From the NCBI GenBank assembly GCA_030142905.1, contig JASJOG010000045.1:1094501-1158500 (forward strand): a stretch of DNA of 64,000 bases, in the 5' to 3' direction. Shown here piece after piece: positions 24,216-43,630 of this stretch. This stretch comes from Heliopora coerulea (taxonomy: Eukaryota; Cnidaria; Anthozoa; Scleralcyonacea; Helioporidae). The notes under the pieces were generated by a model. It saw only the letters and a program-made list of their open reading frames with translations, was not told where the DNA came from and ran no database searches. The position numbers were made by a program, and so were the translations under genes. The stretch's first letter is position 1. Each line of letters opens with the position of its first letter.

Positions 24216-24250
<35 letters not shown>

Positions 24251-26181
24251 ACAGCAAATTGCAAAAATTATGGCACAAACATATGAACATATGAACATAT
24301 CAAGACCACTGTATCTTCATTTTATTCTCATTTCTACAGTCAGTGAAGATATGCTATGTGTTTATTGGTACTTTCTTTGGTCAGTCTAATCTATTAAAGT
24401 AGATTTAAGTATTCACAGTAAAAACATCAGCTATGGATTGACCAAGCGGAAAACGTAATCTCAAGAGGAATATCAAAGTCCAGCAAAATATCTTTACGAA
24501 AGCCATCGAGTCGGACACAGAAGTAAAATCATAATATTTAATAAAGTTCTAACGTTTCGTTGTATTCATCACAACATCATCAGAGAATAATCTACATAAC
24601 TGCCTAAAACCTAAGTATATAGTTACAGGGTGTAATAATATTCATGCATTAACCAATCAGAGGACGTACTAAAAATAAAAGTTACAGGTATGAGTAACAC
24701 TAACAGCATGGAAGAGTAAAGAAGAAATTACAAAAGGAAAAGTGGTGCTGAGCCAATATTGGCATTTAAAGAGGGTTTAAGATTGCTAATGAGTAGACTT
24801 TCACGTAAGAGAAGTTCGAACTCAAAAGGACAAGAAGAAAGGATTTTAAAATCATCGAAGGAGACTGGGTGATCCGTGTCACGGTGGTGTGAAAGAATAC
24901 TGGTGAGGGGAGGGTTAGTGCGCTTTTTACCTGTGAGAGGTAAGAATCCCATATGGTCAGATACGCGTGTATGGAGGTGCCGGATAATTTCTCCGACATA
25001 CGAAGCTCCGCAGCTTCGACACGTAAAATGATAAGCTACATGCGATCTTAAGCGTAGAGGAATCTTGTCATCAAAAGAGAAAAAATGTAAAAGTCTAACT
25101 GACGGGTGAGCAACACACCTGATGTTGATGTGAGGAAAAGCAGATGAGAAAAGTTTTTTTATCTGAGTTCGGATATGAGAGAAATGTTGCCCAGTAAATG
25201 GTAAAGAGAGGTAAACAACACGTTTGGGAGCCGTAAGCAATTTAGCTGATTTGGAGAAGACTTTGTCTAGAAAGGAGGCGATACATCTGTCAAGAAGTTT
25301 TACTGGATAACCATGTCGAACTAGAAAAACTAAAACGCATTTTTACTAACAATGGTTATACCATTTACTGGGCAACATTTCTCTCATATCCGAACTCAGA
25401 TAAAAAAAACTTTTCTCATCTGCTTTTCCTCACATCAACATCAGGTGTGTTGCTCACCCGTCAGTTAGACTTTTACATTTTTTCTCTTTTAATGACAAGA
25501 TTCCTCTACGCTTAAGATCGCATGTAGCTTATCATTTTACGTGTCGAAGCTGCGGAGCTTCGTATGTCGGAGAAACTATCCGGCACCTCCATACACGCGT
25601 ATCTGACCATATGGGATTCTTACCTCTCACAGGTAAAAAGCGCACTAACCCTCCCCTCACCAGTATTCTTTCACACCACCGTGACACGGATCACCCAGTC
25701 TCCTTCGATGATTTTAAAATCCTTTCTTCTTGTCCTTTTGAGTTCGAACTTCTCTTACGTGAAAGTCTACTCATTAGCAATCTTAAACCCTCTTTAAATG
25801 CCAATATTGGCTCAGCACCACTTTTCCTTTTGTAATTTCTTCTTTACTCTTCCATGCTGTTAGTGTTACTCATACCTGTAACTTTTATTTTTAGTACGTC
25901 CTCTGATTGGTTAATGCATGAATATTATTACACCCTGTAACTATATACTTAGGTTTTAGGCAGTTATGTAGATTATTCTCTGATGATGTTGTGATGAATA
26001 CAACGAAACGTTAGAACTTTATTAAATATTATGATTTTACTTCTGTGTCCGACTCGATGGCTTTCGTAAAGATATTTTGCTGGACTTTGATATTCCTCTT
26101 GAGATTCACAGTTAAAGATTTACTTATAGGTGCTTTTTTTTACGATATGCTTATGTTTGCCAAAATTTATGCAAATTGCTG

Positions 26182-26274
<93 letters not shown>

Positions 26275-28675
26275 GAATGAATGTTTCCTTAAAATAAGTT
26301 CGTTACTACTCGGAGTTTCATGCATAAGGCAATCGTCAGGTAACTGAAATATAATACTCTTAACTCTTCCTTTATCCCGATGAAAATTAGTGGGTGGCGG
26401 GTTCTGTCCTTCCGGTTGATGTCTTTTTCCGGTTGATGTATTTTATACAGCATTGGGTTTGGTGGCGGCACTTCGAAAATAATTCTGATCTTTCGTTTAA
26501 TAAAGTCCTCTTGTCAGCTTTCAAAATTTGGAGTTTTCTCCTCTAGACAGAGATTGCATCTTCTTGCTCCGTTGTGATAAACAGCAGCGCGCTTCAAAAT
26601 TGACCATTTTACTTCAAAATTATTCTTTTTTTCTTTCAATGACCAGATGAATTTTGAAAATTCGGTTTCATTCTGGTGTTTCTTTGCGCGAAAGGATTTT
26701 TGGTGGTTTCTGAACCAGTTTTTGGATGCGTTGGACGTCATTCCGATACATTGTTTTGTCGTTCGATTGTCTGTGGTTGTCACTTCAGCTATATCGGAAT
26801 GACGTCCAACGCATTCGAAAACCGGTTCAGAAACCACCAAAAATCTTTCCGAGACAGGAAACACCAGAATGAAACCGAATTTTCAAAATTCATCTGGTCA
26901 TTGAAAGAAAAAAAGAATAATTTTGAAGTAAAATGGTCAATTTTGAAGCACGCTGCTGTTTATCACAACGGAGCAAGAAGATGCAATCTCTGTCTAGAGG
27001 AGAAAACTCCAAATTTTGAAAGCTGACAAGAGGACTTTATTAAACGAAAGATCAGAATTATTTTCGAAGTGCCGCCACCAAACCCAATGCTGTATAAAAT
27101 ACATCAACCGGAAAAAGACATCAACCGGAAGGACAGAACCCGCCACCCACTAATTTTCATCGAGATAAAGGAAGAGTTAAGAGTACAGTCAAACCTGTAT
27201 TAAGCGGACACCCTCGGGGAACAGGCTAGTGTCCGCTTAATAGAGGTGTCCGCTTAACAAAGGTTCTCGTCACCAGGCCCCTCCCCCCGTGGTACGGGCT
27301 GGGTCTTACCACCAGCAGCAGTACGATCAACAATGGATTCTTTTCTAAGAGTATCACAGGAATGTTTTTCCTTTTTATAGCAAGTGATACAATAAGCCAC
27401 AGAAGCGCCTGCTTTCCATCCAGGTGTCTCTTCTGATGCGTAGACAGAACAATTGTCTGATTTATTGCAAGTCGAAACATCACACGTCAGACATCTATAC
27501 TTTGTCTCTTGTTTGCAATTCCAGCACGCGCCACCAGATTCAAAAGCAATTGCACCAGCCATACACCGTAGTCAGGGCAAGTCAGGTCATTACTTGAGCA
27601 TCAAGTTGACTACAGGTTTTATGAAGGTGTTGGAATAAGACGCAAGATGTGTAATACGATACACGAGCCTTATAGGCAATGACAGCCGCCATAACTAGCC
27701 GAATAACACTGAATGTTACAAACGAGATAATGTCTTCTGAAATTGTGGTCGTAAAATCGTTCGTACGAGGGTATCATGCATACATGGAAATCTGGAATCC
27801 GAAAATCGACGAGGAATATTAATTGAAACGTGAACCTAGGAATACAACTGATAAAAATGCAGTTGCGGTTGTTAAAACAACAGTTGTGTCTTGTGAGATG
27901 AAAACTGGATGCGCTCATCCTAACAATGTGTCAGCTAACATGGAGGTTGTTGGGCACATTCCAAAACTAATGGCAGTGTGGGTCACAAAGTTTCTCAAAC
28001 GACAAACGAATACTGCAAAGTTATAATCAAAGGGAAACGGATAAATAGAGGTGCTGGATAAGGCTTGGAAATTCCTTGTTTATACGAGTTCCGAGGAGAT
28101 CGGTTTTCATGCGAATGGTTGACCAATAAACTGTCCAAGGAAAACTTTGACATTGAGAAGTAAACTGAAGAAAATTTTGTTTGATGTAAAAATCTTATCT
28201 TAACGCACGTGTAATAATATGTAGTCGATTTAACAAATAGACTTTGAACCGATTGACAAATATCGTCATTAACATAGTGACTAACGTTATGTCTGTAAAG
28301 ATTATGAAAAATTAGGAAAATTTTGTCCGTTTAACACAGGTTTTTTGTGTCTTTATTTGCTAATTTATGTGTCCGCGTCCGCTTAATAGAGGTGTCCGCT
28401 TGATAGAGGTTTCATTAATAGGAATTATATGAGATTCAATTCGGGACTTTACAAAGTGTCCGCTTAATACAGGGTGTCCGCTTAATGCAGGGCCGCTTAA
28501 TACAGGTTTGACTGTATTATATTTCAGTTACCTGACGATTGCCTTATGCATGAAACTCCGAGTAGTAACGAACTTATTTTAAGGAAACATTCATTCATTT
28601 ATAAACGCTCTACTATATGGTATCAAGCACTCTTTTTCTACCATTTTTCTGCCAATTATACATATTTTGTGTTGG

Positions 28676-28716
<41 letters not shown>

Positions 28717-31700
28717 GCAAATTGCAAAAATTATGGCACAAAACATATCAACATATAAACATATTAAGACCATTGTATCTTCATTTTATTCTCACCTCAA
28801 CCGTCAGTGAAGGTATGCTATGTGTTTTTTGGTACATTTGTAGGCAAGCATAATGTATTAAGGTCGATTAAAGCATTCATAGTTACAGATTTACCTATTC
28901 ACATTTTTTCTTATATGTTTATGCTTGCCAAAAGTTATGCAATTTGCTGTATATAACATCTATATATTGATTACTTATTAGCCGAGTGTGAGGTCTGTAC
29001 AGGAAAGTACTTGTCTGAGGTTTTCGTAAATACTTTCCCGTACAGACCGAACAAACGAGGTTAATAAGGAACTTATTATATGGCTTTTGGCTCCTTTCTT
29101 CATTGCTTTTAACGAGGCCTTGTGTTCGTGAGTTAGCGGCTTAGGTTTACTTGCTCCTTTTCACCTGTTACTTCGTGATTTTTGACATCTATTCATCTAT
29201 TTTTCTGCTTAAAATTATCGTTGAGAACATTCAACTTCTTTTTTCGCAGTTTGTTTTTATAAATCTTCTGAAAAACGTATCTGAAACTGGTTTGTTTTTC
29301 TTCAAGTCAACTCGGAAATTTTCCTGCCAAAACTAGCCGGTCTGTACGAAAAAGTTATTGCACGGCTAGGCAGCCAATCAGTGTAAGTCATTTTGCGTAC
29401 AGACCGGATAGCGAACTCAGTCATATAATATATATATATATATATATATTACTATAAAGTTCTGCAGCTTTGCATTGAGCACTCTGCTTACCGGGAAATT
29501 ACCCATGCTTATTTATCTACTGTATATATATGTATATATATACACATATATACACATATATATCCAGAGTAAACAACCAAAAGAAATAAAAGCTCTTTTA
29601 GTCTTAAAATACTGGATCCTGACACTTGAAAAATTCCTTCACCACACATAAAAATTTCATTTTATTTGAAAACATTACTTGTGCAAGTATTTTTCCAAAT
29701 TGTACTCGAATCTATGCTATAGCCTGCACTAATATTTGTGTTGAAAGCTTCATGATGCAGAAAGAATAAGCATCTTACCATGAGCAGCATTTTCACTTGA
29801 ATGTTTTCCAAGAGTTTTTGAGGCACAAACATTGCTCTCTATTTGATGAAGCAATGCAGGACTTAGTTCTTTGAATTTTTCGATGTCAAACCCCATCGTT
29901 TTATTTACATGGTAAATAGCCAAAAGCTCATCCGCTGAATAGCACTAGATTGTAAAGAAACACAGTTTAGAATTCAATAAATCATAAACTAAAATGTCTT
30001 AATGCTTGAAGCAGATCATTCATAAAGTATTAGTCATATATGTATATATACCATTTTGCATATTAATAACAGACCCGTGTCTGGTGGGTGAAACGGAGAG
30101 GACCATGGATATCGCTAAAATTTCTGAAAGACTGTGAGAAGGAAAGTAAAGAACTGATTTCTGAGCCTTTATCCTCGGTTTGCTTCTTATACAAAAGTTA
30201 TGAACAAGAGTAAACAGTTTTTTGTTAAACCAAGCTCTACCACAAATTGTAGTTTAATTCAGTAGATTTATAATGTCTATTAGCTGCGACGATGCAAATG
30301 AAGGAACATGGCTTGCCAAATTGATACTGAATGCAGGCTGAATACAGACCTGATGAGTCAGACGCACTGACTGCGACGGTCACACAAACAGGTATCACGT
30401 CATGATAACATGCCGATATATGTACTTCACTCACATTCAGAATATTAGCTACTAATTATTTTTTGTTGTAGAAAATAATTCAAGCACAATATCTATGTAA
30501 CCACCAGTCATCGACAAGCGAGCGTCATCATGTTTATGCTTCGGACATTTAGTATGAAGATATTGCTGGCATTGCTCAATGGTCACCGACTTCAAATGAA
30601 ATTGTTGACCAATAAGTAAGGAGTGTCTTTTTGCCTTGAAAACATGATTACATTTCCTGTTTTTATGGCCCAGTTGTTGGGATTAGAGTAGAAGCTCGAA
30701 ACGTCAGTACCTTGTCTCGTTTTTTGGCAGGATACTTCCTTTAAACTTTTTCTACGTTAATTATGAGCTGCCCACGCAGCACTACCTCTATATTTTATAT
30801 TAATAGACATTGGTCTTTCATAAATGTATTTCTGCCGACAATCATTTTCAGTCTGCACAGCTGCTATCAAAGTTGTTCAAGAATTAATAATTGCATGTTT
30901 TTATTCCGTTTTTTTTTATGAGGCACAACAAACTTTTATAATGAAACAATTGCTAAACTCAGTTTTCGCACGTTAGCGAGGATTATCGTATATTTGACAA
31001 AACCAACCTTGACCTTGATAATCCTGGCTATCATGCTCAACCTCGTCCACTAATTGTAATCACCGTTGCTGTTGCGGGTGCGGCACATGTTTAACTGTAC
31101 GGATTGCACACAAACTAAAAATTGTTGATCTACGGATAAATGACTTTTTTGTTGCCAATCAGTCGCTTGTTATACTCGGTGGTTTTTGATCATGAAGGAT
31201 GTGAAATTGTGTAGCATCCTGCTGGAAGGGTGCAAAATGAGATCTTTAATTCAAAACATGCTGGTGTGTCCTCTTTCTCTAGTACGACATAGGGTCACAA
31301 GGATACCATCGGTATTCCGAAATCAAGAACAAAGTTGACAACAGGCCAAAATCGCGCTACGATCTGTCAATCCTTCCAACAGAGTTAAGAGAAAAAAAAT
31401 ACTAAGAAACCTTTCATGGCGACGTTGATGTCCTTCCAATACGCTTAACATCTTGAATGAAATGAAAGTTTTGTTGGTTATTTCTTTTTTTCTAATAGCT
31501 TCTAAATTTTTCGTTTCCTCACAAAATATAAATTTCTAAGCATTGCTAGCACATGTGTGTACAATGCAAACTTTCAGAATATATATGAACTGAAAAACTA
31601 GTTGAGAAACCGCAACCTGAGCAAGCGTTGAATATATATATTTTAAGCAGTCTACCTTTTCATATCGGCTTTTGGTTAGGCTATCCTCATGACCGTTATG

Positions 31701-34700
31701 GTCATGATCACGGTCATCATCCTCATCATCATCATCATGATCGTCGGGATCTTCTGCATGTCTTCGGTATCGGTTAGAAACAGGTTGCTTCACTTCCATA
31801 TGAGCTGTTGAAAGGATTTTGTTAACTGTCAAAGATGGGAAAGACGTCCTTGTTACAATATGACGCCGATGTCTCTGGTGGTCATTATGGTCGAGGTGGT
31901 CATGACCGCCGTAGTGGCCCCCAGTTCCTTCGTGTTGATCATGCTTTCCAATTTTCAATTTTGCCAACAATTGTTCAATTTTCTTTTCGTTAATACTGTC
32001 ATTAGAGGCGTACTTATAAAACAACTTGTGTACAAAAAAGGAAGGGCAAGGAAGAGGTTCCTTCTGTTCCACCACTATACAATGTCTGCCGAGCAATTTA
32101 GAGACGAGAGTGGTACTTATATCTGGAAGGTGTGCTTTGGTGATCAATCCTCCATCCGTGATATTCGATTCACGTAAGAGATCATGGCTTGAAAAGCACT
32201 AGAATAAAAATGTGAAAAACGTAACTAAAAGTTTAGTAAACTACTACCATTAAAATAAAGGGGGAGTACCAGGAATTAATCTCTGTTAGTCTTAATAACC
32301 AAAATTAATAGAAAAATGAACGAAAAACCGGAACGAACTAATGAACAAACGAACAAACGAACAAACGAACGAACGAACAAACGAACAAACGAACGAAAGA
32401 ACAAACAAAAGGGCAACAGAACGAGGGAGAAATTATTCTTAAATTCTGAAGTAGCGTTATGTATTAGAGTGATTTGAACCAGCCGAGTAATCGACGGTCC
32501 TTAGACTTCAAAAACGCTTAAAAAATTGAGTCGTAAGTATCTTAAAAGCATGGTTACATTTTTTCTTTGGTTCAAATGACACTAAAAATTTGGCAAGACT
32601 TCACAAATGACGAAAAGAGTGTTTTATTAAAGCACTTAAGGTTCCTGATCACAGTTCAGGGTCAGTCAGCTGTATTTAGCAACAGCAGCGCAACAATGCA
32701 CCTGATGGGGGCCCGTGGGATAGATAATTTGGTGAGCCCTATCCAGGTCGATACCGATGATAATGCAGACGTATAGGCGGCAATTTGAAGATATCAATTA
32801 AATAAAAGCGATTGACATTCAATATTGTTCTTAAAGTGAAGCCTAAATCGTCTGATACTATTCTGTTCAAAACGTTATGTTACCATTAACTGCTTATTAG
32901 AATACGGAAACGGCTAGCAGTGTAACTTTAAAACACAAGGAATCGGATCACAGCATAGGATTTTATCAGTAATGTTCGGAGGACTTCCGTGAAAATCCTC
33001 ACGCCCGTTCATTTACATTCTTTGGTAAATCTGTCACACCTAAATAGACCTATTATTAAAGAGGCGGTGGATCAATCTTTGCCTTAATGTTACTGTTCGA
33101 TCCTGCTGCGACTTGAAAATAGTTTGAAACTTTATTTCAGCAAATTCATGCCGTCATGATGTGAAAATAACAACGACGTCACAAAATGCTCGGACCCCCT
33201 AATTAATTCGTTTGGCTCGAGAACCTTGGGCTCTACCCACCCTACTGACACTGTTATTTTAGTTTTTTGTAAACAAAATAACTGTGGTGACGAGATGAAG
33301 GGTGAGTATAATATCGAGTTCAGAGTTGTACACCTTTTGTTAATCGTGGTAGAAGGCAAATAAATAGGTATTTGTTTATAAATACACTCGTGCTCGTTTA
33401 TACTTATCGGAAGAAGCAAAAATACGTTGTTTTTTGAAAGAGAATGAGCAACAGCATGTAATGATCAGTTGCTCAGTTCTCGAAGGCAAAGTCGTTGTTT
33501 TGTTATCGAAGTAAACCCATATGAAATATATATTACTATTAGGGTAGTTGACCAGGAAATAAATAACCCTCAAACGTCGTAGAATTGTCTTTAAACCTGT
33601 AGAGAAATGCTCCTTTTGAGTATTTAGAACGGTAAAAATGCGGAAAGTGATACAGCGAAATCATTAATCTATGACTGGCTCAATGAGTTTGAGAACTCGG
33701 AAATGTCGCAGGTGGACAAACATGGGTAACATATCCCACGGTGTCAATTTTGCAGGAAGCAGTCTTCCCCGAAAGAAATGCCTTGCACAGATATACAGTG
33801 CGTTCCAAATTATTATGCAAATTAAAATTTTTACACAGGCAGAAAAATTTGCATATAAAAGGAAACGAAATTAATACTAGTGTAGTACCATACCGTCAAA
33901 CATATCGTGGGTAAATTTCATCATATTTCCTTTAGTAATATAAATGTTATGATGAGATTTCGATAATTTCATAATATCAGATGTTCCAGATTATTAGGCA
34001 AGTTATCATTGCAACAGGAAATGGGACGAAGACGAGACTTATCCGCTGAAGAAAAAAGCAAAATTATTAACCTTCTTGCTAGTAATCGAAAATCTCTTGA
34101 TATTGCCAAGGAAATCGAGCGGGATCACAGAACAATCAAGAGGTTTTTAGGCAATAGTAATGTTCGACGACAGAGGAGTGACAAAGGAAAGATCAGGAAG
34201 ATAACAGGGCGGCAAATGACGAGAATTAAACGAGCAGCAGTTAAAAATCCGTTGTCTTCAAGCAAACAAATATTTGAGAGGGCTGGAGTTTCAGAAATTC
34301 CCAGAACATCCAGATGCAGACATCTTCAAACTATTGCTAAGATGAGAAAACCAGCCAGTCGACCACCTTGACAACCAGGCACAAGACAAATCGTCTTGAA
34401 TGGGCTCGAAAATACATCAAAACAGATTTTCAATCCGTTTTATTCACGGATGAGTGCAGTGCAACGCTTGATGGCCAGGATGGATGGAGCAGAGGGTGGT
34501 TAGTAAGGGGCTGGGATACACCAATCAGACTGAGGCGCCAGCAAGGTGGTGGTGGAATAATGTTTTGGGGTGGAATTATTGGTAACAAATTTGTTGGCCC
34601 TTTTAGAGTCCCAAAAGTAGTGAAGATGAATGCACAAGAATATGTGGCTTTTCTCAAAACGCACTTTGTTCATTGGTTTAGGAGAAAGAGCGTAGCCTTC

Positions 34701-37700
34701 AAAAAAAAGATGATGTTTATGCAAGACCGCTCCATCTAATGCTGCTCGCTTTACGCTGCAATCCCTCCCCACATTAGGCATCAAAAACGAGAAAATAATG
34801 GTTTGGCCTCCGTCCTCACCTGATCTTAACCCAACAGAAAACTTTTGGAGTTTATTAAAAAGGAAAATTTATGCCAATGGTCGACAGCACACTTCCAAGG
34901 ACGAGTTATGGAATGCATAGTAACATCTGCGGGTGATATTGATCCTGAAGATATCGGAAAACGCACGAAATCTGTTGATGACAGACTTATTGAAGTGATT
35001 TCCAAGAAAGGGGCATATGTTAATAAATAATATAGTTTGTGGTTATCTATCAACGTTGCATTTTCTATCTGGTGCATTAGGTTAACAAAGTATTGGACTA
35101 ATATTTGTGCTCATATTCCTTTCTTTTTGTATCAATTTTTGTGGATTTTGTTGTGTTTCCTTACGTTTGCATAATAATGTGGAACGATGCAATCGATGTC
35201 TTTTTTATAAATATCGTTTTACATTTGCCGGTCTTCAGTGGATTTTGCTCAAATTTGTCTCACAAATATATTGCCATACAACTAATAATTTTTTTCTCAT
35301 GTTCCTGGATCTAACCAAATAATTGTTGAATAAAGACCATAATAATGATTTGCATAATAATTTGGAACGCACTGTAAGGGTGAAAAGCGCAAAGGCATAA
35401 GCATTCTGTCACTGTTTTCTTAATCTAGAAAATATAGTAAAAACTAAATTTTAGGTATTCCAGAAAAACCCTAAATGTTGAAAATTGTCTTATTTCTTAT
35501 TGGATACCAGAATATAATATACAAATTAATTAGTATTTTCCTTATTTTTACCTTATTCGTGAAGCTGAAATTGAAATGGAAAAGTCGTGGTTAAAATACG
35601 GATTTATCATACAGTCAATCGAACATTTGCTTTAAAAATTTTCCTCTTTTTATTTTAACTGTTGGTTAAATTATATATCATAGAATTGCACTCCGTTTCA
35701 GTTAGCACGGCACAGATTGATTTAGGCCCGGGTCAAACGTCGCTCTTCTCATGTGCCGAATCTAATAGTTGTATTAAGTTCGGCAAAAGAGCGACGTTTG
35801 ACTTGATTTAAGTTCGGCAAAAGGAATTAAGTACGGCAGACTACATTTGGAGCGACAGGTCACGTCGCATTATGCGACACCGGAGCGACTGCGAGTCAAA
35901 CGCCGCTCTTCTCATGTGTCGAAACTAATGCATACATTTTTGTAATTTATTTTTACCCGAAAATACAGGCTGAACATGCGTAGTACAGTTCGTTATGGCG
36001 TTGTAAATATGGCGGCTATTAACGAGAAAATACAACAATGTGTATCATGCTATCGCGAAACAAAATATAGATGCATTGATTGTCACATGCCAGTTTGCAA
36101 TTTATGTTCAATACCCGAACCAGACGAAGAGACAATAGGATGGGTTGTTGGACGATGTGTGAGCTACTGTCAGCCTTGCCACACTAACGAAAATGATGAA
36201 AATTCAAGGTAGGCAAAGTAGATGCCTGTACAATCTAAATACTTGTCATGAATAAAATGATAATTTCTCATGCAGTCTCCCTTAAAGTGTACCTTATGTA
36301 AATTTTATTCGACTACTTTAGCTAGCACCCACATATTAAACAGTGCATACTACGTTAATAGATTTTGTACTCCAACTGATTACTGAAACACAGAACTGAG
36401 AATTGGTACCGTTCGTACTAGCTACATCACTTTGCAAGTCAATACGTTTATATTTTTGGCACATTTAAGTTTCTGTTTTATATTATATAGAACACCAAGT
36501 ATTGCCTTAAGCAAAGATCGAGAAAACCTTGATGCAGTAGATGATGAGGATGAAGAAAGTTTTGAGGATGCACAAATGTCATTGCCCCTAGGAAAGAAAG
36601 GAAAGCAGAAAAGGAAACCTGGCAGAAAAGCTCAGTGGTCCGACAGTCTTCTCAATGATTTTGTGGATATAGTTGTAAACACTGAATATTACAAAAAGCG
36701 ATTAATATTCATGAATGTCAAGAATCAAAAAAATGCTGAAATATATGAAAAAATTCTAAGGGACCTAAAAGCACGAGCAAATAAGAGAGGAGAAAATGTA
36801 CCATTTAGTCCAGCACAGTTACGCATGAAGTTCAAGAAGGTCGTATCAGAATGCAAGAAAGTTGCACTCACTGTTAAAACTGCCACAGGGATTAAAAGGG
36901 TACAAGATGAGAAGGGTTACGGTTCATAGTTTAACCAATTGTACTCCTTGGTTAAGACTCGAGATTCTTGCCAGCCATGGCAAGCAATTGAACCATCAAC
37001 TATTGATTCATCCAACACAGATGACCTGTCAGAAAGTTGTACACCATCAACCACACAGCAATGCCCATCGGAATGTGAAAATGAAAAGTCATTATTTGTT
37101 CCTGCAAAGAATGCATCCAGAAAAAGAAAAGCAGATGAAACCTTAGATATTTTGGGAGCTATAAAGAACCTAGCTGAGGAAGATCCAATGAAAGATTATA
37201 TCCAATTTGCACGTGAGGAGGCAGAAAAGTCAAGACAACATGAAGCAAGGATGATTGAGCTTATGATGAATTCAGTACAACCCAATCAGTATCAACATCC
37301 TATGGCTATGCCATCACCTTTGTCCTATGGATCACAATTTCAACCAAGCGACCAAGAATACAATTTAAACAATAACAATGATAAAACTTTTTTAAGCTAT
37401 AACAACATTTCCAATACTATAGTTTGTTGCTGTTACACTTGTTTGAGTTAAGAACTAGTGAACAAAATTTTACTTTAGATTGATGTTGGTTCCTAATCAA
37501 TGTAACTTAAAATCAAAGACTAAAGTTTGCCATTTGATTAATATTTACATACTAAACAGAAACATTTATTTTTCATACTAATTAATGAACTTTTGTTTTG
37601 ACCCTTTGTTGCATGGAGTTTTCCCATTGACGAGTAAAATCGTCTGGCTTTAGCCAGAGTAAAATAAAAAAGTGGATATTATGCAATAAAGGGTTAAGTA

Positions 37701-40062
37701 ATAGCAAATATACTATTGTTGTCCATACAGAAGCATTAGCTATTTCAGTAATTAGTGTGTTGTGTTTTAGCAAACAAGTTGTACAACTGCACTGTTTAAT
37801 TCCTTCTCTAACTTTTTGCTGATTGTTTCTCTCACTTTTTCTGCTTGTTTCTCACTTTTTCTGCTTGTTTTGACTTGGGGTTGACGGAATTGCTGCGTGA
37901 TTTCATCAGCAGAATATCTCGTATAGTATCTCGATCTCTTTTTTCACGAGTCAATGGATCAATGGTCAAATCAAGTTTGGCTGGAAGGGTATCTTCATGA
38001 TCTAAACTGACATTATGAAGAACTATGCAGGCAAGGGTGGCCATTTTTACTTCAAAATGGTTTCCTTCGGATTTTCTAAGCAGAAATCGCCATCGTCCCT
38101 TCAGCTGGCCGTAAGCCCCTTCAACTACCATTCTAGCGCGACTCAATCTATAGTTAAAATACCTGTGTTGCTTCGTTAAAACTGCATTTGAATACGGTTT
38201 CATAAGCCACGTCTTCATGGGAAAGGCTGAGTCAGCAAGTAAGAGGGGAGGCACGAAAATACCTTGCTCAAATTGACTGAAATCCGGTAAAAACTTTCCT
38301 TCTTTAATGTCAGACCAGATTGATGTTGATTGAAAAATTACTGCGTCATGCGAATTTCCCGGGAAACCACAACTTGCCCACAAGAACCTGTATTTTGTGT
38401 CCACAATTGCCATTAGAACGACTGAATAAAAGTTCTTGAAATTGTGGTACTCCTTCATCGACTCAGCTCCCCCAGGTGGGCATTTAATAGGAATGTGAGA
38501 GCCACCAACTGCAGCCCAGGTAAATGGGAGCTGCCAAAATTCCTCCATATCTAATATTTTGTCCTTGAAATCTTGTTCACCGACTGGCATGTGGGCAGTA
38601 ACACATTTTTTCCACATACAAGTTACAATGGCTTCGGTTACATCCCCAACAATTGTAGAAACTGTTGATCGACCGAGGCCAATCATCTCTGATATAGTGT
38701 AAAAATAATCACCTCTTCCAAGACGATAGAGACATAATGCCAGACGGTACTCGGGCGAAATGGGTTCTTCAGTAACTGTCTTACGTTCCAATTTGTGGCG
38801 AATACAAGAAAGAATGAAGTTAAACTTCTTTCTGGATACTCGGAAAGTTTTCTTGAAACGTTCATCAGAGTATGTTCTCCATACCAAATCCCACCAACCA
38901 TTGTTTCGTATCAACCTTCTAGAAGAACGCTGCCGAAATTTTGGGTAGTTATTTGAGTGTGAAAGCACTGCGAGATTCAAACATGCTTCTAGTACCAATC
39001 GTCTTCGCGACGATACCAATGCAATACCCACATCCAGTAGCTTCCTTCGTTTTTTACGTTCAATAGCGATTTTTTTTCGCAAAACACTTTTTACAGCTGG
39101 TAACATCTTAAAAAGTTCTAATTTTCGCGCCAGTTTGTGTCAAACTATTTGAAAATACTTCATGTAAAAACACTAAATTGGATTAGGAGCGACATATTAA
39201 GTTCGACGTCTGACTTAACGCCGCTCCACTGTCGATCTAATGTCGAATCTAATTGTATTAGGTTCGGCACATGAGAAGAGCGACGTTTGACTCGGGCCTT
39301 AGATCTGCACATCTTGTGTGGAACTGCTCGTCAAATGAACACAAGTCTGAAGAGGGTAACGCCCGTGGCGTAAATCCTGGTGGGGATAGGGTATACATTC
39401 CCTAGCTTTTAGGAAAATGGGAGTTATCGATCTCAATCCGTTGGTCTATAAAAGCCAGAAAATGAGTAAAACTAAAGGAAATTATCAATCTTTTCAAAGA
39501 ATCTCCGGCATTGATGATAAGCTTTTATGTTACGTTATTTTTCATTATCATTCAAAGCTACTATTGTATATCTATACATACAATAGTGGCTTGTGCAGTA
39601 TATATATCCAGTATATTTAAAAATTATTCACCAAAGTGGAGGTAAATATCTACACAATTCACCGACCCTGTGGTGAATAATTGCATTAGCATATAACTCG
39701 CATAATTGTTTTCACAAACATATTTTTTAAAACTTTTAAAACAATTTTACTGAATGTTGGTTGGTCGCCTGTTTGTCATATGTAAACGAAACATTTTGAA
39801 TACATCCTCAGTGCATTTATCGCCAAAAAGTAAAAGAAATACATATCTCTGAATACTTAAATGCCAAATTTCGTTGGTTTGTTGGTATTGTCTGGCACGG
39901 CGGCCTCGTTTATTAAAAGCAATTTTCTTGGGAAGCCACGTTGGTTTGGTCGGAGATGAATAGTGCACGATATTCCGGGATAGAGGAACCAGTCAGATTG
40001 CGTAAAAAACACCATTTACCTGAGAGGATTTATAACACACACAAACACACACACATGCATAT

Positions 40063-40109
<47 letters not shown>

Positions 40110-43100
40110 CATACATACATATACATATATGTATAAACATATTAAGTTTATAAATTATATATACGTTTATTAATATATATAATTTATAAATTTAAAACTG
40201 TTTGTTGTTACTCAGAGTTTCACGCAACTGAGAGGACGATCTTCAGACGACAGGAAGGTTCGATTAAGTTATTCCTTTCATATGTGTGGCATCATATTTA
40301 TATATATATATAATATAAACATATTCAATATAAATATATACAATACAATCAGTTTCTATATTGACTTTATGTAGAGTGCTTAATATCTTGTAAGATAGAG
40401 CAGATAAATGAAATGAATAAGCTTAAAATTCTGGGTTGTTACTCAGAGTTTCACGTCTCTTTGGACGATCATCAGACAACTGTCCAGATCCTGATTTAGT
40501 TATTCTTTTATACAGTCTCGTACGTCATCAGGTAAAAATAGTCCGGTGATCTCATTGCCGTGCGTCAACTGGGTGTGCTAATTTTGTTAATGAGGAATTT
40601 ATTCCTGTGTCGGCATGTTGAGAATATTTCGGTTCGCTTATTAAGTAGGTTCTTTTTATCGGCTTTCATAATAAACAACTTCTCTTCGAGACAAAGATTA
40701 CATAGCTTTGCTCCACTTTCATATCCTTTTGCGCGTTTTAAAATAGACCAGTTAACTGTAGAGTCCTTTCGTTCGTCCTTTAATCCCCACACGTAGTTTG
40801 ATAAAACGGTCTTGTTCGAGTATTTATGGTCGCGGAATGATTTCGTATGGTTGTTGTAGCGATGTTTGAATGGGTGGGCTGTCATACCTATGTAGAATTT
40901 CTTTCCCGTGCTGTCGGCTTGCGAGATTTCGGCTTTGTAGATTATGTTAGAGGTCATGCAGTTTCCAGGTAGTGGGCAGGATTCTTTTTTTCGGCAATTG
41001 CAACAGCTTTCGTTGTTGCTCATTTTATCTCTATTTAGTACGCGAACGTTATGTTTGTTTACGGTGTTCTTCATGTTTCCCATGCAACTGTAGCTAACCT
41101 TCAGTGTGTTCTTGTTGAAGATTTTTTGTAATTTGTTTGTTGTGGGAAAGTGTTTGTCCATAAAGGCGAGAAATTTACGTCCCACGCTGGTTTTTACATT
41201 TCGGCTAAATGGTGGGTTGAACCATATTATATTTCGTGATCTTTTTTGTCGTTGGGATGCTCTTAATTTGGGATCTTCGTCGGGGAGGTATTCGATGTTG
41301 GTGTCGAAGCCACTGTTCTTAAGTGCGTCGTTGTACGTGGATGCAGCGTTAGTGAAGGTGGCGTGGTCGGATGATAACTTCGAGACCCTTCGGCTTACGG
41401 ATTTCGGGATCTGTTTGATAATGGCTGGCGGGTGGTTGGACTGTTTGTTGATGTATAGCGTGTCATCATTTGGTTTCTTGTAGGGTTGGAATTTGCCATT
41501 ATGTAGGATGAGGGTGATGGCAAGGAAGTTAACAATTTTTTGGTTGGCTGTGGTTGTAATCTTGAGCTCGAATTCGTCGAAGGCTTTGATTAAATTTTTC
41601 TTAGCTTTCTCTGCTAGTCTGGCTGTGACGTTTTTCAGTAAAATCAATCCGCCGTCTCTATAAAGTCCTGTGTTTGTCTTTCCGAATTTTTTCGATAGAA
41701 AATCTAAGATGAATAGGCCGACGAGCTCGCAAATTTCTGCCCCGTCGCTACTTCCCATGGTTACATCGAACATATTCTCACTTCCTCGTCGGATCCATGG
41801 CTTCTCTTGGTGGAATAAAAATGACTTTCGGGCATGTTTGATGATGGCTTCTTCTTGTGGAGTAATTGTAGTGAGTTGTTGGCCCCAGGAAATTGCTCGA
41901 TCTAGAAGGTTTTTGGAGATTGAAGAGTAAAAGTTAACGATGTCGAAAGAGATGAAGGTATGTAGGGATTTTTCGCTGATCTTGCTGAACCACTCGGTGA
42001 CTGAAGTTGAATTTCTCCATTGGTTAACGCCTGTGCTTGCTCGGATGGATGTATTTATGCGGTCAAGGATGACTTTGCTGACCTTACCGAGATCAGACTT
42101 GGCTGGGTTGATCAGACGGCACTTCGTGTTATTTTCAAAATTTTCTTTGTGGTCTTTCAGTGAAATGAAAGCTGGCTTTCTGGCCATGGTTTCGATTCTA
42201 TCGTCGACATGTAGGTCGCTGGCAATAGTTCTTAGTTCCTGGTTGGTTTCGCCTAGTAGCTTTTCGTTTCCTAGTTTGTAGTTTGCTGTTACGTTCTCGG
42301 TCAACAGTTGTTTGTATTTGTCCGGTTTCATTTCGTAAATGTTTCGAGTTTTGTCGGCGAATACCATTACGTTGGGTGATGAATTTATCTTCTTAGCATT
42401 GTTGGCAAGTGTTGAGAGAAACTGGTTATTTATGTTCCTGAACTTGATGTTTTCCACCATATTCACCAACCATATACAACAACCATACGAAATCATTCCG
42501 CGACCATAAATACTCGAACAAGACCGTTTTATCAAACTACGTGTGGGGATTAAAGGACGAACGAAAGGACTCTACAGTTAACTGGTCTATTTTAAAACGC
42601 GCAAAAGGATATGAAAGTGGAGCAAAGCTATGTAATCTTTGTCTCGAAGAGAAGTTGTTTATTATGAAAGCCGATAAAAAGAACCTACTTAATAAGCGAA
42701 CCGAAATATTCTCAACATGCCGACACAGGAATAAATTCCTCATTAACAAAATTAGCACACCCAGTTGACGCACGGCAATGAGATCACCGGACTATTTTTA
42801 CCTGATGACGTACGAGACTGTATAAAAGAATAACTAAATCAGGATCTGGACAGTTGTCTGATGATCGTCCAAAGAGACGTGAAACTCTGAGTAACAACCC
42901 AGAATTTTAAGCTTATTCATTTGATATAAATATATATACATTTCTACAATTCATTAATAATTCATGAGGAAAATACAAAAGAAAATCATAACCGTGTCGG
43001 GTCTTTGTATGTGATAAAAAAACATGTGCCTTTATATGTGAAGAAGTTCATTTTTTTCGGCTTACAAAAGACAAATTTCCAAACGCTCTTCGTGAATTAG

Positions 43101-43426: not shown

Positions 43427-43630
43427 AAGTAAAATAGACAAAATTTTTTGTTGTCGCTACTCTGAGTTTCACGCGCTCAGGCTACGCGCGCCTGAGCGCG
43501 TGAAACTCAGAGTAGCGACAACAAAAAATTTTGTCTATTTTACTTCTTTATTCGCTCTGCTGGCATGGTATTGAGCGCTCTTCATTTTCAAACCAACACT
43601 GCAACCTTCCTGGTCCTCACCTTTGGTTTA

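Follow-up and report, generated by a model that had tools for sequence, protein, structure and literature searches.

One-tailed head-to-head pairs of Penelope-like elements in Heliopora coerulea point to reverse transcription primed at both ends of a target break

A 64,000-nucleotide (nt) stretch of the Heliopora coerulea genome (the window; contig JASJOG010000045.1, positions 1,094,501 to 1,158,500) contains three loci, here called pairs A, B and C, at which two copies of a Penelope-like retroelement meet head to head, so that their 3' ends point outward. What kind of insertion leaves two inverted copies of one element at one site? The original prediction took the layout for the usual product of transposition and proposed either a molecule primed on itself or two molecules joined at the 5' end. 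We consider, with a probability of roughly 0.72, that the pairs arose by two-ended target-primed reverse transcription with two staggered start sites, a reading that draws mainly on the finding that nearly every pair carries a 3' tail on exactly one arm and on the common source of the two arms.

At all three loci the minus-strand copy is longer than the plus-strand copy, and all copies are 5'-truncated. The inverted arms are 97-100% identical over 704 nt (pair A, where gapped alignment gives 748 columns at 99.6% identity), 454 nt (pair C) and 394 + 90 nt (pair B, split by an insert). These matches are not due to chance and confirm the loci as head-to-head Penelope-like pairs. The limits predicted for pair A (24420-26103) are exact; for pair B the start at 26268 holds and 28604 proves to be the inner end only, the tail continuing to 28676; pair C, first placed at 40372-42924, is corrected to 40341-42923 with the addition of the minus-copy tail at 40341-40406. 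A single 9-nt target-site duplication (ATTCACAGT) brackets the whole of pair A. The 13-nt duplication of pair C is less certain because it is AT-rich, and that of pair B is unreadable because B is embedded in (TA)n. Across the genome, all eight pairs that could be read (A, C, L043, L044, L045, L047, L049 and, by eye, L092) have one duplication of 9-14 nt around both arms.

The elements have the attributes of endonuclease-bearing Penelopes, which are seen directly in a related family, F1 (members include L043, L044, L045, L047 and L049), and by alignment in the window copies. Both F1 frames scanned (L049 and L047) encode a reverse transcriptase and a GIY-YIG domain above the Pfam cut-offs, with expectation values (E) of 1.2e-11 for RVT_1 and 7.3e-7 for PF01541 in L049. 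The window frames A, B and C gave no significant Pfam match. The A frame aligns to the F1 GIY-YIG frame (27% identity, E 4e-14), the B frame aligns to C, and the C frame is 45% identical over 546 residues to a Solemya velum protein (P0002) that carries PF01541 (GIY-YIG), with at least 2507 homologues at E up to 0.001 in a search that scored only the 7997 candidates sharing most words. No reverse transcriptase can be shown in the A and B copies because of their truncation. The C copy (40565-42535) has YRDG where P0002 has YRDD, probably the polymerase motif, and is likely inactive because of this change together with its 5' truncation. Pseudo-long terminal repeats (pseudo-LTRs) are also present: in C601 a tail is followed by sequence resembling the start of the open frame (L072), with the 3' end in L094 (by eye, middle unread), and pattern spacing together with L093 indicates one in C368, its middle likewise unread. 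The window copies are truncated and have no pseudo-LTR.

The twin layout is common in this genome, and the data support it as the usual product in F1. A list of F1 3' ends, complete at up to 3 mismatches, holds 57 ends, 44 of them in 22 head-to-head pairs. Close F1 neighbours are head-to-head in 22 of 23 cases, with none tail-to-tail and one same-strand, which an internal pseudo-LTR would explain. The C-family 3' end has 323 matches (none in the control), and among the 100 of these that were listed 27 close neighbours occur, of which 24 are head-to-head; C102, counted in the 24, probably represents two separate insertions. When 150 of 2962 GIY-YIG candidates were scored, 20 neighbours less than 10 kb apart were found, against a chance expectation of about 0.5 of any kind: 16 head-to-head (at least two of them duplicated loci, L041/L042 and L050/L051), three tail-to-tail and one same-strand. 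Copies that seem single are often not so. Of eight such C-family copies, L085 and L089 are solo and the other six are twins whose partner is short or imperfect; among five from F1, L099 (G000:C390:107120-108220) is a twin with a likely target duplication (CTTTCGTTATT, by eye) and a third start site, and L095-L098 have no partner in the stretch fetched.

In each family the inner 3' end is fixed to within a few nt, with an optional extension of 27-73 nt that we call the tail. Exactly one arm is tailed in 46 of the 50 non-redundant pairs that could be scored at both ends. A script-made table accounts for 45 of 49 (one in A, seven in B, 27 in C, five in F1 and five in F2, the L039/L040/L041/L048/L050 group), the 46th being C601; the A family is represented by one locus only. 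Ten of the 50 (L074-L083) had been preselected because patterns already showed one tail, and with these and C601 set aside 35 of 39 pairs are one-tailed (binomial P 1.7e-7, compared with at most 50% under independent choice). Among the 22 F1 pairs, pattern matching with at most 3 mismatches gives 20 as one-tailed; five of the 22 (C29, C143, C491, C632 and C754) are shared with the 50, and duplicated loci were left unchecked among the others. The F1 pair C368, two-tailed by pattern, is probably one-tailed, since a tailless true 3' end of its minus copy is likely (L093). Neither C601 nor C368 was counted as an exception, because L072/L094 and L093 pointed to internal pseudo-LTRs.

These counts have a defined sample. 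We left out L062, L065 and L088 (one 3' end missing), L072 (an internal end, C601 being counted once with L094) and, as duplicates, L042, L051, L054 and C364; L046, L052 and L057 went unscored for want of a tail reference for their families, and L056 showed no arms. L055 was scored as one-tailed despite a deletion in its tail. C492, C313, C382 and several others stand in the tables outside the tail count. As far as contig C99 the pattern list of tails is complete at 1 mismatch, for later contigs at exact matches only; its unverified rows were not used. An old B-family twin with both arms tailed (L053/L054) was seen in two places with partly shared flanks (by eye) and is probably a single duplicated locus.

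The two arms of a pair also resemble each other in source. At one A/C site, the sole column to pass the threshold, both arms carry the same letter in 28 of 28 C-family pairs, where 13.4 mixed pairs are expected. The arms differ by 1.6% within pairs and by 3.9% when re-paired, and none of 2000 shuffles reaches 1.6%. The simplest reading of these sequences is that both arms would derive from one RNA or from RNAs of one locus. The junctions differ from pair to pair: in 31 from the C family, with ends as placed by BLAST, there are 14 overlaps of 1-5 nt, three blunt joins and 14 inserts of 1-33 nt. By eye, several inserts are copied from near the junction (L059, L060, L064, C and L067), repeatedly so in L060 and L067; in window pair C, with L065 as a guide, the 8-nt insert CAACCATA repeats short-arm sequence. 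We take these inserts to resemble polymerase-theta-type end joining. The arms of one twin differ in internal deletions relative to window copy C in L058 and L059, as if the polymerase had skipped along the RNA separately for each arm.

Given these features, we propose that the endonuclease would make staggered cuts, about 9-14 nt apart, in the two target strands and that both exposed target 3' ends would prime complementary DNA (cDNA) on the element RNA. The template would probably be one RNA molecule, or RNAs from one source, and the two starts would lie near its 3' end, about 27-73 nt apart, the outer giving an arm with a tail and the inner a tailless arm. Each cDNA would have its own stopping point, which in the C family often lies inside the hammerhead motif or a little beyond it, and the cDNA 3' ends would be joined through short overlaps or short, partly templated inserts. 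After fill-in, the product would be a single insertion with its two 3' ends facing outward, its arms meeting head to head and one duplication of the target. We infer the order of these events, the single RNA and the end-joining enzyme from the products. In independent biochemical work, purified Penelope protein of the anole cut both strands of the target and extended them, and synthesis began at two neighbouring sites of the RNA, which match the tail (PMC11167929). The suggestion that two molecules are joined at the 5' end fits the observed pairs.

Several points weigh against two-ended priming from staggered starts. The one-tail rule is broken in four of the 50 pairs (L073 and L053 have both tails, L087 has none and L012 has a 15-nt stub), the F1 pair C7 (L092) is tailless apart from a stub of 11 nt on one of its arms, and in L099, beside a tailed arm, the second starts about 93 nt further in, at neither site. 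Solo C-family copies and partnerless F1 copies occur, as listed above. No clear target duplication was found at L040 or L057, and many (TA)n sites were unreadable. The allele concordance rests on one site and would also arise if the A and C sources had been active at different times; the junction overlaps of 1-5 nt may in part reflect chance. Anole biochemistry does not predict one start of each kind, because it reveals no difference in start site between the strands. Finally, all the data come from one assembly.

That last biochemical result, extension of both strands in vitro with start sites alike (PMC11167929), favours a scheme in which two independent initiations occur on separate RNAs with start sites chosen at random. 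We regard this as unlikely. Random choice gives at most 50% one-tailed pairs, well below the proportions seen in the full set, in the reduced set and in F1 (20 or 21 of 22), and about 13 of the 28 C-family pairs should then mix alleles at the A/C site, whereas none does.

Fold-back self-priming, in which one cDNA or antisense RNA folds and the short arm is copied from the long arm, appears somewhat less probable again. It would account for the near identity of the arms and for the junction of L064, which by eye is a small snap-back hairpin, and PMC3846280 reports palindromes at junctions. However, the tail is present only on the shorter arm in 22 of the 42 pairs that could be ranked by arm length, including L033, L081 and L082, whose tailed short arms are made of little beyond the tail, and a tail present on the long arm only should have been copied to the short one. 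Because the short arm thus has sequence that is absent from the long arm, fold-back is contradicted as a general mechanism, and with it the suggestion of a molecule primed on itself. The ranking was made by hand, and in several pairs the arms differ by no more than a few nt; the arms of L043 and L067 are equal in length, and L055 and C601 are unranked. It also led us to reject the idea that the tail always lies on the longer arm, as for a leading and a lagging polymerase, since the tailed arm is longer in 20 pairs and shorter in 22.

Two successive insertions, the second targeting the end of the first, are very improbable: the anole protein is able to cut its own pseudo-LTR region (PMC11167929), but a single duplication surrounds the pair in the eight readable cases, the arms share an allele and close neighbours are nearly all head-to-head. 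Least credible is an assembly artefact of inverted reads or mis-joined haplotypes, for which loci present twice in the assembly, with shared flanks (L041/L042, L050/L051, C612/C364) or equal spacing (C537/C313), could speak, whereas the 31 C-family junctions vary by locus, target duplications flank the pairs and the tails of the arms differ.

The type I hammerhead predicted at each outer end stands, as a motif, for both arms of pairs B and C and only approximately for pair A, where it lies about 85 nt inside the end. A hammerhead descriptor applied to the 64 kb matched exactly four times, on the two arms of B and the two of C, and never in 20 mononucleotide shuffles. These four motifs have the CUGANGA...GAAA core with stems I and II and a very short stem III, and a U.U at the base of stem II; they resemble minimal type I hammerheads, and their self-cleavage is only predicted. 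The motif of A, present on both arms, has an extra base before stem II and failed the descriptor. Rfam hammerhead models gave no match in the whole window at the gathering score or in 22000-45000 at E up to 5, and folding energy lent no support to a hammerhead (z of -0.2 for C, 0.6 for B and -1.9 for A). The motif recurs at each outer end because both arms begin near the RNA 3' end. F1 has a similar hairpin from which, by eye, the canonical core is apparently missing, and nevertheless forms twins, so a hammerhead seems unnecessary for the layout.

In the C family, 40 of 62 arm 5' ends fall at reference positions 1978-2028, across the hammerhead motif, in a sample enriched in very short twins chosen as such; in a list drawn up without such selection, 16 of the 24 head-to-head neighbours lie within 150 bp of each other. 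None of the 62 ends lies at the predicted cut (2035/2036), the nearest being 2028 and 2059, and these arms were thus not made from a cleaved 3' fragment; a hammerhead cleavage product as their template was rejected. A polymerase stopped by the folded motif, or pairing of self-complementary cDNA ends, would both explain the clustering.

The features of the three pairs are collected in Table 1. Pair A lies within one copy (24240-26190) of a small inverted-repeat element with ends CAGCAAATTGCAAAAATTATGG; a second copy at 28679-28960 (about 28714-28950 by eye) is empty and may show the state of the pair A site before insertion. The insert in pair B has a terminal repeat CAGTCAAACCTGTATTAAGCGG, TA on its flanks (by eye) and a cysteine-rich reading frame inside. 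Another hammerhead-like 3' end on the minus strand lies just left of pair C, at 40174-40278; its similarity to the C family is 73%, and no partner for it was seen by eye. At 43427-43545 a near-perfect palindrome bears a hammerhead-like 3' half (GAAACTCAGAGTA) on each arm; it matches mir-3910 in Rfam under the gathering score, and may be another very short twin or a foldback element. Open frames at 34009-34739 resemble a Tc1/mariner-like transposase in two pieces, and we take a 424-residue frame at 37832-39106 to resemble a DDE-type transposase.

Table 1. Features of pairs A, B and C in the window
Feature	Positions	Strand	Basis
Pair A, whole element	24420-26103	head-to-head	arm alignments
Pair A, left target-site duplication ATTCACAGT	24411-24419	none	flank comparison
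Pair A, long copy, 5'-truncated	24420-25358	-	arm alignment
Pair A, 3' tail, on long copy	24420-24456	-	tail comparison
Pair A, hammerhead-like motif, minus arm	24583-24547	-	motif reading; catalysis only predicted
Pair A, C-terminal open frame with GIY-YIG-like region	24728-25342	-	alignment to F1 frame
Pair A, short copy, tailless	25359-26103	+	arm alignment, tail comparison
Pair A, hammerhead-like motif, plus arm	25980-26016	+	motif reading; catalysis only predicted
Pair A, right target-site duplication	26104-26112	none	flank comparison
Pair B, long copy, tailless	26268 to ~26791	-	arm alignment
Pair B, minus-arm hammerhead motif; predicted cut after 26307	26302-26344	-	descriptor match, cleavage predicted
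Pair B, short copy, first part	~26792-27185	+	arm alignment
DNA-transposon-like insert within short copy of B, later event	~27186-28513	none	terminal inverted repeats by eye
Pair B, short copy, 3' end	28514-28676	+	arm alignment
Pair B, plus-arm hammerhead motif; predicted cut after 28564	28527-28569	+	descriptor match, cleavage predicted
Pair B, 3' tail, on short copy	28604-28676	+	tail comparison
Pair C, left target-site duplication ATATAAATATATA	40328-40340	none	flank comparison
Pair C, long copy	40341-42474	-	arm alignments
Pair C, 3' tail, on long copy	40341-40406	-	tail comparison
Pair C, minus-arm hammerhead motif; predicted cut after 40440	40435-40480	-	descriptor match, cleavage predicted
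Pair C, open frame, 656 amino acids as listed, crosses junction	40565-42535	-	45% identity to Solemya velum GIY-YIG protein
Pair C, short copy, tailless	42475-42923	+	arm alignments
Pair C, plus-arm hammerhead motif; predicted cut after 42893	42853-42898	+	descriptor match, cleavage predicted
Pair C, right target-site duplication	42924-42936	none	flank comparison

LINE-1 twin priming also yields an inverted arrangement, in that the second end of the target serves as a primer on the element RNA; the inverted part there is the 5' part of the element, whereas in the Heliopora twins both arms start near the RNA 3' end. A close precedent is in the rotifer Adineta vaga, for which PMC3846280 describes an inverted pseudo-LTR beside a Penelope copy, head-to-head as the commonest inverted arrangement, several inserts with a duplication of 8-10 bp and others lacking one, an optional tail on one inverted pseudo-LTR, and a proposal of self-priming on an antisense template. 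Because head-to-head Penelopes with one duplication and an optional tail are thus already published, the twin architecture is not new. The Adineta elements are few, whereas those of Heliopora are numerous, include very short twins and follow a one-tail rule that, as counted, speaks against fold-back. The Poseidon element PAc of Anolis carolinensis shares with the present elements a GIY-YIG domain and reverse transcriptase in one protein, a hammerhead motif, a pair of neighbouring start sites by which the tail is defined, and cutting and extension of both target strands; unlike them it is described as tandem in the genome, and the main text does not tie its two-strand extension to inverted pairs (PMC11167929). 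Inverted pseudo-LTRs with 3' extensions are mentioned in PMC8969392, and the passages of PMC12910113 consulted add nothing on inverted twins. Neither the one-tail rule nor the derivation of twins from two-ended priming was found in the titles, abstract openings and passages searched, and as far as that search extends the counted rule with a shared source is new, although its priority is uncertain.

A bolder proposal, to which we give a little less than even odds, is that all complete Penelope transposition is paired, two polymerases within a single complex working on the same RNA from two fixed staggered sites, each serving one of the 3' ends at the target break. One-tailed twins would then be the normal product and tandem or solo copies secondary, the hammerhead, in families that bear one, would serve at this stage as a stop and joining site, not as a cutter, and many of the "dispersed" hammerheads of animals would be aborted twins. 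PMC7761336 describes minimal type I hammerheads as scattered in non-coding DNA and in Penelope pseudo-LTRs of animals, whereas many scattered C-family motifs here are arms of very short twins. Counts of "single" Penelope fragments and of "dispersed hammerheads" can overlook two-armed insertions. The later steps of Penelope integration were left open by the 2024 biochemistry (PMC11167929), and the two-ended model yields direct predictions for the purified anole enzyme. With the one-tail rule and the shared allele, the genome sequence serves as a record of the reaction, in which two ends, two start sites and probably one RNA took part.

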